Assembly: GCF_963678195.1 (NCBI RefSeq)
Contig: NZ_OY782759.1
Coordinates: 868,001 to 932,000 of the forward strand
DNA: 64,000 bases
Reading direction: 5' to 3'
From: an uncultured Hyphomonas sp.
GTDB lineage: Bacteria > Pseudomonadota > Alphaproteobacteria > Caulobacterales > Hyphomonadaceae
Below, one piece after another: positions 4,610-64,000 of the stretch. Position 1 is the first letter of the stretch. Every line of letters begins with the position of its first letter. A program made the translations under genes and the position numbers. Under the pieces are notes generated by a model. It searched no databases. It had not been told where the DNA came from and saw nothing but the letters and a program-made list of their open reading frames with translations.

Positions 4610-5257
4610 ATGTCATCGATCGATCCTGCGCGCCTTTCGGCGTACGTTGCGTCGCGTATTTGCCACGACCTTGTCTCGCCGGTGTCCTCGGTCACCAACG
4701 CGCTCGACCTCATGGGCGAGCCGGGGGACCATGAAATGAAAGAGCAGGCCGAAGCGCTGCTGCATGACGGGGCGGAGAAAGCGGCCGCGCGTATCCAGTT
4801 CCTTCGCTACGCATTCGGTTCCATCGGTCTGAATGCCGGCGCGGCGGACATTCACGAAGCCCGCAAGATTACCGAGGCCTTCGTCAAGAGCCACAAGCCG
4901 AGTGTGGAATGGGATATACAGGCCGACCATCTGAGCTTTTCTCATGCGCGCCTGATGATGAACCTCGTCATGATGGCGGTGGAATCCCTGCCGCGCGGTG
5001 GCGTGGTCAGCGTCCGCATCCGCAGCGAAGCGGGCGGGCTGACCATCACTTTGACTGCGAAGGGCGACCGTGCCCGCCTCAAGAGTGACGTGACGGCGGC
5101 GATTGAAGGCACCGAGCCGGAAGAGGGCTGGCGGGCGGAGAACATCCAGGCGCTTTTCACGAAGATGATCTCGGATGGCCTGGATGGCGAGCTGACCGCG
5201 AAGTCCAGCGAGAACCAGGTCATCTTCATGGTTACGGGACTGCGCGCCGAAGGCTGA
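4610..5257 (+). CDS. chpT: Histidine phosphotransferase ChpT
   Basis: ChpT relays phosphate from the hybrid kinase CckA to CtrA and CpdR in the alphaproteobacterial cell-cycle circuit. The protein has 215 residues from ATG 4610. The dimerisation helix carries ICHDLVSPVSSV, with the phospho-accepting His at residue 19, as in histidine kinase DHp domains; the rest is a degenerate ATPase-like fold (MMNLVMMAVESLPRGG). An in-frame TTG at 4541 would add 23 residues with no family support, so ATG was preferred. It neighbours a CheY-like gene and cheR; chemotaxis-type genes also lie beside chpT in Caulobacter. Its target ctrA is at 44807 in this window. Confidence 0.92.
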   Translation: MSSIDPARLSAYVASRICHDLVSPVSSVTNALDLMGEPGDHEMKEQAEALLHDGAEKAAARIQFLRYAFGSIGLNAGAADIHEARKITEAFVKSHKPSVEWDIQADHLSFSHARLMMNLVMMAVESLPRGGVVSVRIRSEAGGLTITLTAKGDRARLKSDVTAAIEGTEPEEGWRAENIQALFTKMISDGLDGELTAKSSENQVIFMVTGLRAEG

Positions 5258-5343
5258 GCTTGCTTCAGCTGCGGGGATGGAAAGTTTATGTTAAGACACT
5301 TCGGGGAGCGTCGGAAGCTTAGCTCCCAGTGGGGATGTAGTTC

Positions 5344-5709
5344 ATGAAAACGTGTCTGATCGTCGACGACTCGCGGGTGGTTCGGAAGGTGGCTGCCCGT
5401 ATTATCAAGGACATGCGCTTTGAAGTGACCGAGGCCGGCAATGGCTCGGAAGCGCTGGACATCTGCCGTAAACAGATGCCGGACGCCGTCCTGCTGGACT
5501 GGAACATGCCGGTCATGAACGGGCTCGACTTTCTTCGCGCCCTGCGCCGGGAAGAAGGCGGGAAAAAGCCGGTTGTCATGTTCTGCTCAATCGAGAATGA
5601 TGCCGAACACGTTGGCGAGGCTCTCAGGTCGGGTGCCGACGAGTTTATTATGAAGCCCTTCGACGCCGAAATTCTCGAGAGCAAGTTTGCCGAAGTCGGG
5701 CTGATCTAA
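5344..5709 (+). CDS. Single-domain CheY-like response regulator
   Basis: 121 residues, receiver domain only. The acidic pair is D8/D9, the phospho-acceptor is D52 (LLDWNMPVMNG), and the conserved lysine is K104 (FIMKPFDAE), so it should be phosphorylated. At the usual switch Thr/Ser the sequence reads MFCSIEND. With no output domain it must act by protein contact, for example on the flagellar motor or another signalling protein. It lies between chpT and cheR, 86 bases after chpT, so it may be part of a motility or cell-cycle signalling set. Which CheY paralogue it is cannot be told from sequence alone. Confidence 0.9.
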   Translation: MKTCLIVDDSRVVRKVAARIIKDMRFEVTEAGNGSEALDICRKQMPDAVLLDWNMPVMNGLDFLRALRREEGGKKPVVMFCSIENDAEHVGEALRSGADEFIMKPFDAEILESKFAEVGLI

Positions 5710-56843: not shown

Positions 56844-56968
56844 TTCGGCCTCCTGTGTTGTGGTGAAATATCAACGCGGGAAGGCGGGCGCGTGTTCCAT
56901 CCAGCACAAGCGGCCGGCATGGCGGGGCCATCCGGTGGGGGGAGGTGAATTTCACGTCTGCTTCCGCA

Positions 56969-57059
56969 GATGCCTGCGAAGGCAGGCATCCATGGACCAG
57001 GCATTTCCTCATGCGCAGCGGGAAAGACCTGTCCATGGACCCCTGCCTTCGCAGGGGTC
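56969..57059. repeat. Inverted pair of hairpin repeats, CATGGAC family
   Basis: Left copy 56969-56997 (GATGCCTGCGAAGGC..., ending CATCCATGGAC) and right copy 57031-57059, its inverse apart from the outer stem: left stem GATGCC/GGCATC, right stem GACCCC/GGGGTC. The pair changes are matched on both sides, so base pairing is kept. Each copy has a TGCGAAGGCA core hairpin. 33 bases lie between copies. Similar dispersed repeats are common in alphaproteobacterial genomes. Confidence 0.75.
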
Positions 57060-57077
57060 GTCGGAAAGTGGGGCGGT

Positions 57078-57467
57078 TCAGGGCGGACCACGGACGTGCA
57101 GGCCATGATCATACCGGACTACGTCATGACGAAGCATGACTATACCGGACTTATCCGGATCATGACGGACCACGTCATGACCAGGCATGATCATGCCGGA
57201 CTTGCCGCGCACGCAAACGGGCACATCGCTGGCAAGGGCAGGATGGTCCCAGCGCGGTACGCGCGGCGCTTCATATGTATAGAGATCATCGGGCGGCGGG
57301 GCATCGGCCAGGCAGACGAGCCGGATATTGCCGAAGCAATCGACCGCCATCAACGCTTCGCGCCCGGTGCGCGCGTGCCAGCGGGCGACACGCAGCAGGT
57401 TCCACACCAGCCAGGGCCAGAAGAGCGGCCAGACATGGTTGAAGTAGCGTTGAAGGTCAGGATGCAT
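57078..57467 (-). CDS. Conserved-looking hypothetical protein with repeat-encoded tail
   Basis: 129 residues. The N-terminal 85 residues look like a real protein: YFNHVWPLFWPWLVWNLLRV (amphipathic/aromatic helix), ALMAVDCFGNIRLVCLADAP, DDLYTYEAPRVPRWDHPALA. The last 40 residues come from the short repeats at 57104-57202 and contain repeated SGMIMPGHDVVRHD-like units (SGIVMLRHDVVRYDHG). The family is not named here; similar WPWLVWNL...FGNIR proteins occur in alphaproteobacteria. The tail looks like an extension by repeat growth. Confidence 0.55.
   Translation of the reverse strand: MHPDLQRYFNHVWPLFWPWLVWNLLRVARWHARTGREALMAVDCFGNIRLVCLADAPPPDDLYTYEAPRVPRWDHPALASDVPVCVRGKSGMIMPGHDVVRHDPDKSGIVMLRHDVVRYDHGLHVRGPP
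57104..57202. repeat. Three short repeats with CATGA..CCGGACT core
   Basis: CATGATCATACCGGACT (57104-57120), CATGACTATACCGGACT (57135-57151) and CATGATCATGCCGGACT (57186-57202) are near-identical 17-base copies, with ACGTCATGAC copies between. They lie inside the 3' end of the gene at 57078-57467. Confidence 0.7.
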
Positions 57468-57520
57468 GCCCTCAAAGATGGGGCGGCAAGCTATCAGACG
57501 AATTCAGACATCCCCCAACC

Positions 57521-57624
57521 TGTCATCCCGGAAAGCCCGCAGGGCTTATCCGGGACCTTCTCGCTGGTGTGCGCGCTACAGGAACAAGGTCCCGGATATT
57601 TGCTCCGCAAATTCCGGGATGACA
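57521..57624. repeat. Inverted pair of TGTCATCCCGGA hairpin repeats
   Basis: Left copy 57521-57559 and right copy 57586-57624 point at each other: the TGTCATCCCGGA ends face out, the CCGGGACCTT ends face in, with 26 bases between. Each copy folds with CCCGGA/TCCGGG as the base and a variable inner stem: AAGCCC/GGGCTT on the left, ATTTGC/GCAAAT on the right. The same ends and orientation flank the GIY-YIG gene at 63513-63964. Confidence 0.85.
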
Positions 57625-57661: not shown

Positions 57662-57757
57662 GCGTCATCCCCGACGGCGCAGCCGTCCGGGGACCCATCT
57701 CCGAACGCATCGTTCAGAGCTGGACCCCCAGACCGCTTCGCGGCCGGGGGTGACGCG
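57662..57757. repeat. Inverted pair of GTCA-CCCC hairpin repeats
   Basis: Left copy 57662-57697 (GTCATCCCCGACGGC opening, GGGGACCCA closing) and right copy 57721-57757 (inverse form GTCACCCCCGGCCGC...GGGGGTCCA) have the same outward GTCA and inward ACC ends as the 57521 pair, but GC-rich stems. 23 bases separate them. Together with the 57521 pair they fill the gene-free stretch 57468-57829. Confidence 0.75.
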
Positions 57758-61311: not shown

Positions 61312-63363
61312 TCAGCCTTTTGCGGGCGGTTTCCGGTGCTTTTTCAGCGGTTTTGCGCCCTTCTGGAAGGCGGGTTTGCCGCCTTTGGGGCCACCCTTGC
61401 CAGCGCCCTTGGGGCCGCCTTTTCCAGGCTTGCCCTTGCCGCGCATGGGCGGCTTCCAGCCATCCTTGGCGTGCACTTTGGAGAATTTCTTCGCCGGCTT
61501 TGCAGGCTTCTCCCGGTCGTCCTGGATGTAGTCTGTCTGCGGGGAGGGGGCGCGTTCGGCTGCGGCCGGGGCGTCGTCCCGGGCAGCTTTCTTCTCATAG
61601 GGCTTCTTGCCGGAAAATTTGCGCGGGGCGTCCGGGTCGTAAGGTTTCTTGCGCAGGCGCGGGGCCGGGCGCTCGCTACGGTCTTCCCGGTCGAACCGGG
61701 CCGGTGCAGGTGGCGCACCGTCGAGCCGCGAGGCGCGCAGGCTTTTCTCCACCGTGCCATTCTCCCCGATCGTCTCGAAGAAGCGGGCCGCAGCGTCGCG
61801 GGTCAGCTCCACATGCGTGTCGCCCGGATTGATGCGGATGGCGCCGATATCGTCGCGGGACAGGCCGCCGGCCTTGCAGAGGACGGGCAGGATCCAGCGC
61901 GCCTCGGCGTTCTTCTTGCGGCCGACATTCAGCTGCACCCAGACGGCATCGTCGAAGCCTTTGCGTTCGGTCTTGTGGCGCTTCTCGCGCGGCTCGCGCT
62001 CGGGCCTGTCGCCGCGCTCTCCGCGTTCGCGGCGCTTCGGCGGGCTTGTGTCCACCGGGCGCAGGTCCTCGGGCGCTGAGCGGCCCTCACGCTGCTTGCG
62101 CAGGAAAGCGGCAGCGACCTGTTCGGGCCCGTGCTGTTCCAGCAGGGCGTCGATCATGGCGCGCTCGCTCTCATGCACCGGGCGGGTGAGGGACGGGTCG
62201 GCCAGCAGGCGGGCATCGTCCAGCGCGTTGATTTCGTCAGCCGATGGCGGCGTGCCCCAGGTCGCTTCGATCCGGGCATCGCTCAGCAGGCGTTCCACGC
62301 GGCGGCGGGCGCGCGGCGCCACGATCAGGGCGCTGACGCCCTTGCGTCCGGCCCGGCCGGTGCGGCCTGAGCGGTGCAGCAGCGTGGCGGGATCGCGCGG
62401 CAGGTCTGCGTGAATGACGAGACCCAGATTGTCGAGGTCGAGACCGCGCGCGGCGACGTCGGTTGCGATACAGACGCGGGCACGGCCATCGCGCAGGGAC
62501 TGGAGCGCATTGGAGCGTTCCTTCTGGCTGAGCTCTCCCGAGAGGGCGACGACCGGGAAGCCGCGATTGCCCATGCGGCTCATCAGCTTGTTCACCGCTG
62601 CGCGTGTCGTGCAGAAGACGAGCGCGCTCTCGCTGTCGGAATGGCGGACGATATTGACGATGGCATTCTCTTCATCGCCCGGCGCAACCAGAAGCGCGCG
62701 GTATTCGATGTCGCCATGCTGGCGCTGTTCGGACTCGGTGCGGACGCGTTCGGCGTCTTTCTGGTAACGCGCGGCAAGGTTTGCGATGCCTTTCGGCACG
62801 GTGGCCGAGAACATCAGGGTGCGGCGCGTTTCCGGCGTGCCCTGAAGGATATGCTCAAGCTCGTCGCGGAAGCCCATGTCCAGCATCTCGTCGGCTTCGT
62901 CCAGCACAACGACACGGATGCCGGCGGTGTCCAGCGAGCCGCGCTTGATGTGATCCGACAGGCGGCCGGGCGTGCCGACCACGATATGGGCGCCGCGGGC
63001 GAGGGCCTTGCGCTCGTCGCGCATGTCCATGCCGCCGACGCAAGTTGCGATACGTCCACCGGCCGGACCGTAGAGCCAGATCAGTTCACGGGCGACCTGC
63101 ATGGCCAGTTCGCGCGTTGGTGCCACGATCAGGGCAAGCGGGGTTTCGGCGCGGGTGAGGCGGTCTTCCTCGCCCAGCAACTCGCCCGCCATGGCGAGGC
63201 CGAAGGCGACGGTCTTGCCGGAGCCGGTCTGGGCGGAAACGAGCAGGTCACGCCCGGCGAGCGAAGGCTCGATCACGGCAGACTGGACCTGGGTGAGGGC
63301 GTCATACCCCTTATTGGAAAGGGCTTCGGCGAGGGCCGAGGGAACGGACGGATAAGCGGACAT
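61312..63363 (-). CDS. DEAD-box RNA helicase with DbpA-type RNA-binding domain
   Basis: 683 residues from ATG 63363 (ATG 63402 adds 13). Helicase core: SAQTGSGKTVAFGLAMAGEL (Walker A), VAPTRELAMQVAREL, VVGTPGRLSDHI, VLDEADEMLDMGF (DEAD box), MFSATVPKGIANLA, and C-terminal ATDVAARGLDLDNLGLVIHA with HRSGRTGRAGRKG. A DbpA/CsdA-like RNA-binding domain follows (WVQLNVGRKKNAEARWILPV, IGAIRINPGDTHVELTRDAA), then a long Lys/Gly/Pro-rich basic tail. Likely DeaD/CsdA-type role in ribosome assembly or RNA decay. Confidence 0.93.
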   Translation of the reverse strand: MSAYPSVPSALAEALSNKGYDALTQVQSAVIEPSLAGRDLLVSAQTGSGKTVAFGLAMAGELLGEEDRLTRAETPLALIVAPTRELAMQVARELIWLYGPAGGRIATCVGGMDMRDERKALARGAHIVVGTPGRLSDHIKRGSLDTAGIRVVVLDEADEMLDMGFRDELEHILQGTPETRRTLMFSATVPKGIANLAARYQKDAERVRTESEQRQHGDIEYRALLVAPGDEENAIVNIVRHSDSESALVFCTTRAAVNKLMSRMGNRGFPVVALSGELSQKERSNALQSLRDGRARVCIATDVAARGLDLDNLGLVIHADLPRDPATLLHRSGRTGRAGRKGVSALIVAPRARRRVERLLSDARIEATWGTPPSADEINALDDARLLADPSLTRPVHESERAMIDALLEQHGPEQVAAAFLRKQREGRSAPEDLRPVDTSPPKRRERGERGDRPEREPREKRHKTERKGFDDAVWVQLNVGRKKNAEARWILPVLCKAGGLSRDDIGAIRINPGDTHVELTRDAAARFFETIGENGTVEKSLRASRLDGAPPAPARFDREDRSERPAPRLRKKPYDPDAPRKFSGKKPYEKKAARDDAPAAAERAPSPQTDYIQDDREKPAKPAKKFSKVHAKDGWKPPMRGKGKPGKGGPKGAGKGGPKGGKPAFQKGAKPLKKHRKPPAKG

Positions 63364-63512
63364 GTAAAGGCTTTCGGGGGTTGGACTGTCAGGGATCGTC
63401 ATCGAGGCACGATCGACCTGTCAGAGGGAGTTTGCGGCCCTATGACACGTTTTTGCGCGCTGCACCATGGGTACGCGCAGGGCGTTCGTTAATGGGAAAA
63501 GCAATCCCGGTG

Positions 63513-63552
63513 TGTCATCCCGGAAAACGCAAAGCGTTTATCCGGGACCCAG
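63513..63552. repeat. Left 40-bp arm of the inverted repeat around the GIY-YIG gene
   Basis: Begins TGTCATCCCGGAAAACGC and ends TATCCGGGACCCAG. It is the exact inverse of 63925-63964 over all 40 bases, with no match beyond. It folds internally: CCCGGA/TCCGGG base and AAACGC/GCGTTT inner stem around a short loop, with one bulged T. Its last 15 bases encode the final four residues and the stop codon of the GIY-YIG gene. Confidence 0.95.
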
Positions 63553-63876
63553 AAGCGGACTTTCAGGCAGAACAGATCCGCTTGGGACTGCAAGCAAGTC
63601 CGGATAAAGATCTCGCCAATCCGGGTTATCCGTCTCAATCAGCTGAAGCTTCCATGCCCGGCGCCAGCGCTTGATCCGCTTCTCGCGCAGGATCGCTTCG
63701 TTGATATCGTCGTGGCACTCAAACCAGACGAGTAACTTGCAGCCATACTCTCTCGAAAAGCCGGGGAAGACATCATGCTTGTGTTGCCAGATGCGGGTTT
63801 CAAGGTTCGAGGTCACACCCGTGTAAAGCGTGCCGTTTCGAGCTGACGCGAGCATGTAAACAAAAGCATATGACAC
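63538..63876 (-). CDS. GIY-YIG single-domain nuclease (UPF0213/YhbQ-like)
   Basis: 112 residues. The GIY-YIG module is complete: FVYMLASARNGTLYTGVTSN (FVY and LYTG strands), LETRIWQHK with the conserved Arg, and NEAILREKRIKRWRRAWKLQ with the metal-binding Glu. NPDWRDLYPDLL is typical of the stand-alone group. The start is GTG 63876; later ATGs would cut the first strand. The last residues (LGPG) and the stop TAA lie inside the left inverted repeat. Stand-alone members are DNA endonucleases of uncertain biological role. Confidence 0.87.
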   Translation of the reverse strand: MSYAFVYMLASARNGTLYTGVTSNLETRIWQHKHDVFPGFSREYGCKLLVWFECHDDINEAILREKRIKRWRRAWKLQLIETDNPDWRDLYPDLLAVPSGSVLPESPLLGPG

Positions 63877-63924
63877 GTCCGGAACATATCATGAACAGTT
63901 ATTCCGGTCACGTTCTTTTTTGTG

Positions 63925-63964
63925 CTGGGTCCCGGATAAACGCTTTGCGTTTTCCGGGATGACA
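63925..63964. repeat. Right 40-bp arm of the inverted repeat around the GIY-YIG gene
   Basis: Begins CTGGGTCCCGGATAAACGC and ends CCGGGATGACA. Exact inverse of 63513-63552. It lies 48 bases upstream of the GIY-YIG start codon, so promoter sequence for the gene must lie between it and 63876 or within it. Confidence 0.95.
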
Positions 63965-63985
63965 AGCCGGGCGGTCTCTCTTCCG

Positions 63986-64000
63986 TGTCATCCCGGAATT
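63986..64000. repeat. Partial repeat copy cut by the window end
   Basis: TGTCATCCCGGAATT repeats the outer end of the 63513 family in the same orientation as the left arm, 21 bases past the right arm. The inner AATT suggests the ATTTGC stem type seen at 57586-57624. The rest is outside the window. Confidence 0.7.

Follow-up and report, generated by a model that had tools for sequence, protein, structure and literature searches.

A small GIY-YIG nuclease gene between inverted REP hairpins: a candidate REPtron-like unit with its own class of repeat

CGTC REPs, as defined in the available portions of Di Nocera et al. 2013 (PMC3733652), include the dRS3 repeats of Neisseria (equated there with CGTC-1) and RPE-4 and RPE-6 of Rickettsia, and are reported from five phyla. 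According to the same portions of the article these repeats apparently come without a dedicated transposase, and what moves them is left open. REP/RAYT systems (REPtrons, REPINs) do have an enzyme: in the accounts available to us in part, its gene lies between inverted REPs, and dispersed dimers are found elsewhere. Here we describe a locus at which a small GIY-YIG nuclease gene lies between inverted copies of what seems to be its own REP hairpin. Sequence comparisons lead us to regard it as probably a REPtron-like unit.

The locus lies at the end of the window, by which we mean the whole 64,000-nucleotide stretch of Hyphomonas DNA that was analyzed; the genome from which it comes is a single contig of 3.67 Mb. 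The features of the window are as follows.

63506..63552, plus strand: left arm, a REP hairpin with its head (TGTCAT) outward and its tail (ACCCAG) toward the gene; it carries the last four codons and the stop of the nuclease
63538..63876, minus strand: gene of the 112-aa GIY-YIG nuclease, listed with a GTG start (open reading frame listing, Pfam match)
63925..63971, minus strand: right arm, an inverted copy of the left arm, 40 bp identical (sequence comparison)
63985..64000, plus strand: third REP (inner part AATTTGCGGAGCAAAT), cut off by the window end; the whole copy is at C1:931988-932024 of the genome
57522..57558, plus strand: first of the two REPs in a dispersed heads-out dimer of this family; inner stem AAGCCC/GGGCTT
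57587..57624, minus strand: dispersed REP, second half of the same heads-out dimer, inner stem ATTTGC/GCAAAT
57664..57754: a further GTCA..CCA hairpin pair, 57664-57697 on the plus strand and 57721-57754 on the minus strand

An earlier note on this DNA had described two 40-bp arms that are identical in inverse orientation, with the last four residues of the nuclease (LGPG) and its stop codon inside the left arm. Both observations stand: the arms at 63513-63552 and 63925-63964 are exact reverse complements, the protein ends in ...LLGPG, and the match between the arms stretches to 47 nt at 96% identity (63506-63552 and 63925-63971). The third REP, of the same hairpin family, starts 21 nt past the 40-bp right arm. 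The window end appears to be intergenic: the minus-strand neighbor at 61312-63402 reads like a DEAD-box helicase gene, and the gene just past the window end like a cytochrome P450. The pattern TCATCCCGGN{8,30}CCGGGACC matches four times in the window versus zero times in each of 100 dinucleotide shuffles; the whole genome holds 36 matches, and the reversed control pattern has none there.

The same note held that each arm folds into a hairpin, and covariation among related repeats of the genus bears this out. The window-type repeat has 7 + 6 pairs (13) flanking a one-base bulge, and a loop of 3. In 28 distinct repeats of equal length, hand-picked from the genus list and so not a census, the ends and outer stem do not change, and the inner stem varies with compensation. 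Paired cells make up 99.5% of this set, against 78.1% in shuffles and at most 54.9% in slid controls; double-change cells number 72 versus 20, and the covariation score is 0.530 versus 0.112 in shuffles. Judged from these sequences the hairpin is real and, it appears, selected, being maintained through compensatory changes. Dispersed copies are also ordered with respect to each other: in the 33 close pairs among 128 listed genus copies (counts entered manually; listed copies that were left out had no listed neighbor within 200 bp) the heads-out arrangement is found 31 times versus 2. With 36 matches in the genome, dispersed multi-copy REPs thus occur as inverted dimers, as they do in REPtrons.

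The dimer at 57522..57624 is situated just upstream of the start of a 129-aa minus-strand gene (57078-57467), for which Pfam returned MASE2 at E 0.096, below the family cut-off. Gene and dimer together (57078-57624) recur at five further places in the genome with 74-91% identity, one of them without the dimer, and at many places in sister species; the unit may be cargo, or a family of genes that these repeats accompany. At 56960-57070 there is a pair of CCGCAGATGCCTGCGAAGGCAGGCATCCATGG-type hairpins (identified by eye), the class that surrounds the nuclease gene L002 described below.

The 112-aa protein matches the Pfam family GIY-YIG (PF01541) at E 4.2e-14, with 53 bits against a curated cut-off of 22.6. 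This is its only Pfam match, with none to the Y1 HUH tyrosine transposases, and NCBIfam returned zero families. The catalytic residues of GIY-YIG enzymes are Y, Y, R, E and N; Y7, Y18, R28, E65 and N84 are invariant across 18 aligned sequences. In the predicted model (pLDDT 85.5, pTM 0.75) residues 100-112 are disordered, and the four arm-encoded residues sit in this stretch. The best fold match is UPF0213 protein BH0048 (1zg2, E 2e-4), followed weakly by Slx1 entries (E 0.04-0.15); at the sequence level, solved structures match only weakly (E 0.011). The window genome has four short GIY-YIG genes, including that of the window, besides one in a 633-residue frame that is taken for UvrC. All four have hairpins nearby and the hairpins differ in sequence (partly judged by eye): L001 has a TGTCATCCCGGGG..CCCGGGACC pair, L002 has CCGCAGATACCTGCGAAGGCAGGTATCCATGG-type hairpins on both sides, L003 is the gene of the window, and L004 has two GTCAT-type hairpins, downstream only, with an automatic pair score (as L069) of just 8.

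Around each relative of the nuclease the highest-scoring inverted pair without gaps was taken from the 450 bp on either side, genes being compared with control windows of the same loci at a threshold of 16; UvrC loci (L037-L044) were left out as a flank control because there the domain match sits inside a long gene. The earlier note would have been contradicted had relatives mostly lacked flanking arms, or had arms been equally common near unrelated genes. Half or more of the relatives have them, and they are far rarer in control windows. Within the genus a pair was found at 19/38 loci versus 2/692 control windows, the 38 loci omitting four partial hits (L083, L084, G021:C45 and G039:C19) and containing orthologues and genes of a second clade (B, below), so that they are not independent. 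In named genomes the figures are 51/80 versus 9/999, the 80 loci being those kept of at least 579 confirmed relatives, and six of the nine control matches coming from one long palindromic contig, L086. The phylum sample outside the genus, 68 of 117 matches at E ≤1e-20, gave 41/68 versus 1/259; the named and unnamed locus sets may overlap in organisms. Loci from a plasmid collection had a flanking pair in 6/8 cases, and at a seventh, in the cyanobacterium Planktothrix, the gene lies between GTCATTCTGAG..GAATCTC repeats (by eye). An enzyme gene flanked by REP hairpins is thus a recurrent arrangement.

A second scan, for hairpins of the form GTCA..7-bp stem..CCA within 300 bp of the gene, compared 126 genes with 2007 windows. 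Such a hairpin was present on at least one side of 86/126 genes versus 218/2007 windows and on both sides of 60/126 versus 14/2007; within the genus the scan finds only 11/38. The commonest layout has heads out and tails toward the gene (35/60). According to automatic labels 37 of 212 genes lack both an A-type hairpin and an arm pair that reaches score 16 (classes A, B and C are described below). The stop codon falls inside an arm in 24 of the 193 genes whose stop was found, including the window gene and both of its orthologues. The matches listed come from, among others, alpha-, beta-, gamma- and deltaproteobacteria, Zixibacteria, Planctomycetota, Elusimicrobia, Calditrichota, Omnitrophota and Dehalococcoidia, and the proteins are 51-69% identical to that of the window across phyla.

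Several individual loci are worth recording. Positions of about 1.2-3.8 kb in L086, a Zixibacteria contig, form a very long near-perfect palindrome, possibly an assembly artefact. In L144 (Sphingomonadales, 4867-5395) arms of 101 bp, each with a CGTCATTGCGAGG..GCAACCCAG pair, surround the nuclease. The Planktothrix plasmid gene (L187, 3001-3285) has neighbors annotated as an MmeI-type restriction enzyme and DISARM drmA, amid GTCATTCTGAGTGAAACGAAGAATC repeats. L182 (NZ_CP119140.1) and NZ_CP119142.1 are Neisseria gonorrhoeae sequences of 2.17 Mb, listed as plasmids yet chromosome-sized; in L182 a GIY-YIG gene without an annotated feature lies amid dRS3-like GTCATTCCCGCG..GCGGGAATC repeats.

Weak hits of the family model proved to be mostly members of a second GIY-YIG clade (B) with another class of hairpin, CCGTTCGCCCTGAGCTTGTCGAAGGGCG and similar. 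In a first set of these genes 10/18 had a pair at score ≥16 versus 0/101 windows; the GTCA..CCA hairpin was found on one side of 2/18 and on both sides of 0/18. On a FastTree phylogeny of 212 proteins, which has few columns and many weak forks, hairpin classes A, B and C need three changes, and class B needs four gains or losses versus 11.8 in shuffles, 0 of 500 being as low. For this comparison some of the automatic labels were revised manually: 11 genes became A (ten of them formerly 'other' and one, L253, formerly B), L238 went from 'other' to B, five were kept as 'other' and not counted, and L232 keeps its automatic label A though its arm looks B-like. The B motif, composed after the B arms had been seen, occurs near 15/22 B-clade genes versus 3/190 other genes (39/1713 control windows), and the A-type hairpin near 2/22 versus 133/190 (200/1713). 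Motif and scoring were then fixed for an out-of-sample test on all 22 new B-clade matches, delimited by an E value line of 1e-28 set after the score gap had been seen. Paired arms were present at 20/22 of these genes versus 0/67 windows and the B motif at 13/22; A-type (CGTC-type) hairpins were at 0/22, versus 14/67 windows. Eleven GIY-YIG genes of other subfamilies, hand-picked from lower-scoring matches and four of them from one genus (g115), had no paired arms, one A match and one B match.

Seven genomes were seen to contain both clades. The B-clade gene has a B-type pair in 7/7 (genes scored), and the A-clade gene an A-type pair in 6/7 (L220 and L238 were labeled manually). The exception is G267, whose A-clade arm (L279, 'other') has a CCAG tail without the GTCA head. 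Three genes in these genomes (L215, L270 and L240) are below score 16. Across 92 loci, with host classes assigned by hand and 10 genus loci allowed in, arm similarity correlates with protein identity (Mantel r 0.418; largest of 999 permutations 0.249), also when only pairs from different bacterial classes are considered (r 0.383; largest of 999 permutations 0.207). A third clade in the genus (13 rows, support 91) contains both C-type arms, most of its rows being without a scored pair; a third hairpin class is only suggested. Taken together, these sequence data offer good support for the association between nuclease and hairpin and for its clade specificity. The proposal of the earlier note that the nuclease belongs with the hairpins has gained in strength: the match of clade to class is better evidence than was available when it was made.

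The association extends to whole genomes. Of 299 phylum genomes 59 contain the CGTC-type pattern GTCATNCCNGCGNNNGCNGGNATCCAG; copy numbers across the set range from 0 to 635, and the reversed control is absent from every genome. The nuclease family is found in 72/299 at E 1e-20, a line set after the score gap had been seen. The two are found together in 28/299 genomes (odds ratio 4.0, p 8e-6; counts typed manually). Outside the window's class the association has p 3e-6; inside, the odds ratio is 2.9 (p 0.055). Some genomes speak against such a link: repeat-rich phylum genomes without a nuclease match include G077, G204 and G093 (151, 110 and 42 copies), genus genomes with repeats and without the nuclease include G016, G024, G026, G028, G035 and G039, among others, and G002 has five short nuclease genes and zero copies of the window pattern.

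The history of the site itself was traced among relatives. In G019 and G037 the nuclease gene lies between the same neighbors, making this an orthologous locus in three species. The inner stems of the arms read AAACGC and AAGCCC in G019, ATTTGC and AAGCCT in G037, and AAACGC twice in the window genome (G000). The earlier note had taken exact identity of the arms as a sign of recent copying or exchange. The pattern does look like recent homogenization, but since the arms of the two orthologues have unequal inner stems, identity is not a fixed feature of the locus; it is probably the product of local, recent conversion. Differences between empty and occupied sites, another expectation of the note, were found: a stretch of about 535 bp in G000 corresponds to 23 bp in G036 and G033, and no target duplication was seen at this, the one genus site examined. 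The site was dropped as proof of transposition because the more distant G037 carries the gene, which makes loss as likely as gain. The orthologous site of G004 (L168) has an unrelated, B-class-like repeat pair (by eye); hairpins of differing classes are therefore taken up at one and the same intergenic spot. G020 and G026 have one REP-like hairpin each at the same site (by eye), and G006 and G007 have unrelated sequence of 848 and 956 bp.

A second case comes from Sphingobium plasmids. TomMM7A and TomTYG46 have arm-gene-arm at the site, TomTYG64 has a single fused palindrome built from the outer halves of both arms, TomTYG74 has a fused palindrome with base changes, and TomTYG72 has neither form. 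The TomTYG64 form is exactly what would remain after a deletion from the 8-bp direct repeat ACCCCGGG in one arm to its copy in the other, and the case reads better as deletion. A comparison of Sinorhizobium meliloti Ak57 with K101 was likewise dropped as proof of transposition, K101 retaining a poorly aligning hairpin cluster, and L180 and L181 gave no result as sources of empty sites.

It is most likely, judging from the association, that the nuclease acts on its own hairpins, and this part of the earlier note's reading, an autonomous element whose nuclease acts on the hairpins, holds up. Its autonomy has fared less well: the locus is common to three species, neither a target duplication nor a new insertion was seen, the empty sites may have arisen by loss, and some genomes keep repeats without having the nuclease. 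Autonomous movement of the unit we only infer. In the mechanism that we propose the nuclease would recognize its own hairpin class by the constant head and outer stem, the inner stem being free to vary, and would do so on a single-strand hairpin or a cruciform. The GIY-YIG domains of Slx1 and UvrC cut branched or distorted DNA, and the nuclease may similarly nick at the hairpin base; host replication and repair would then copy, swap or delete the hairpin and whatever lies inside a pair. Because GIY-YIG enzymes hydrolyze DNA and are not known to rejoin it, spread has to take another route than the cutting and rejoining performed by RAYTs. The dispersed REP dimers would stand to the nuclease unit as REPINs do to RAYTs, as its non-autonomous derivatives. 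The wider possibility, to which we incline with somewhat less assurance than to the REPtron-like unit itself, is a second, HUH-independent REP world: several minimal GIY-YIG clades, each with its own hairpin class (the CGTC type including dRS3 and RPE; TTCG..TGAGC..TCGAAGG; probably CCGCAGA..TCCATGG), that by nicking and subsequent repair mobilize dispersed hairpins, in some genomes as many as hundreds.

Other explanations have to be set against this. The nuclease could be a free-standing homing endonuclease that cuts REP hairpins or insert-free sites, repair from an occupied copy then installing REP-gene-REP, with hairpins as targets and not as transposon ends. GIY-YIG enzymes do include classic homing nucleases; at a Sphingobium site that holds arm-gene-arm in other plasmids, two sister plasmids show a fused palindrome alone; and for most pairs of genus genes that are not syntenic, DNA similarity reaches little beyond the coding region. 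However, the TomTYG64 palindrome is equally the exact deletion product, and multi-copy dispersed dimers without the gene require an extra explanation; we hold homing to be possible, if rather unlikely. Less likely still is a domesticated factor that removes or resolves hairpins for the host, the hairpins gathering through expression control or tolerance and no spreading taking place. Such a role would suit the retention of active-site residues, the stop codons carried by arms and the persistence of the gene at one site in three species; against it stand the sporadic presence of the nuclease (22/41 genus genomes, besides the 72/299 of the phylum), several paralogues per genome with differing hairpins, and the protein identity across phyla, which together resemble the behavior of a selfish or exchanged gene.

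That the repeats are ordinary REPs moved by Y1 (RAYT) enzymes, the GIY-YIG genes merely sharing their intergenic hot spots, we consider very improbable. Y1_Tnp is present in 174/299 genomes and does co-occur with the CGTC-type pattern (42/59 pattern genomes, odds ratio 2.0, p 0.016; counts again typed manually), and inside the window's class its association with the pattern is the clearer of the two (4.8, p 0.009). But the association of nuclease and pattern persists whether or not a genome is Y1-positive (odds ratio 5.9 with Y1; 3.9, p 0.011, without), the window genome has no Y1_Tnp match at E 0.001, and in the genus 8/41 genomes match at that value, 3/41 above the cut-off. Hot spots do not predict a hairpin class for each nuclease clade, and Di Nocera et al. 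(PMC3733652) report, in the portions available, no tyrosine transposase genes with flanking CGTC repeats. RAYT-driven spread was accordingly rejected as the main cause. Chance or an assembly artefact, for which the palindromic control contig is the one thing to be said, is negligible given shuffles and control windows, a single-contig genome and orthologous loci in two further species. The reading that we prefer remains a REPtron-like unit.

We found no paper linking GIY-YIG nucleases with REP, REPIN, dRS3, palindromic or hairpin repeats among the matches listed, in a search of published papers that took in few subscription journals, and the link may be in print elsewhere. 'GIY' is absent from the main text of PMC3733652 and from the available parts of the 2018 HUH survey (PMC6006769) and the 2025 RepRanger paper (PMC12306157); PMC10928387, in which GIY-YIG, RAYT and palindromic-repeat terms occur together, is, from the part available, unrelated to a nuclease-hairpin link. 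What appears to be new is a REP system with a GIY-YIG nuclease in the place of the RAYT and, as sequence comparison makes likely, acting on the hairpins. It would name a candidate enzyme, and for each clade a predicted substrate, for repeats whose mover was left open in the available text of PMC3733652, and so suggests the missing enzyme behind a widespread bacterial repeat family. If true, a minimal hydrolytic nuclease of about 95 residues is one more of the few enzymes by which non-coding repeats are spread.

Comparison with known systems places the locus as follows. With GIY-YIG homing endonucleases (I-TevI, Seg type) the family shares the domain and a sporadic spread; unlike them, the window protein shows no separate DNA-binding domain in its 112 residues, no intron is seen, and the flanking hairpins are clade-specific. 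UPF0213 BH0048 and Slx1 resemble it in modeled fold, but sequence similarity is weak. As in MITEs and insertion sequences with terminal inverted repeats there are inverted ends around, or without, a gene; here, however, the ends are hairpins, the enzyme is of no known transposase type and the one genus site lacks a target duplication. Most arms of relatives are of the CGTC-REP type, with which the family shares, as far as the partial text goes, the head CGTC or TGTC, the unpaired CCA tail and an occurrence mostly as dimers. The window arms (TGTC..CCCAG) have the head (CGTC, or TGTC, CCTC) and CCA tail that define these REPs; their two-part stem of 13 pairs is longer than the defining stem of 8-9 bp with a loop of 4-5, whereas several relatives' arms fit, for example L089 with stem 8 and loop 4. 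The available portions of PMC3733652 found no dedicated enzyme, whereas one is proposed here. REP/RAYT systems, in the partly available accounts, are like the present one in placing the enzyme gene between inverted REPs with dispersed dimers elsewhere, in the match of enzyme clade to REP type, in their patchy distribution and in repeats that may overlap the gene end. They differ in that the window enzyme is a GIY-YIG and not a Y1 HUH protein, in a genome without a Y1 match, and in the head, which is TGTC at the window, mostly CGTC or TGTC in relatives, or another motif, and not of the GTAG type. The system of the window may work like a RAYT system, but it is not one.
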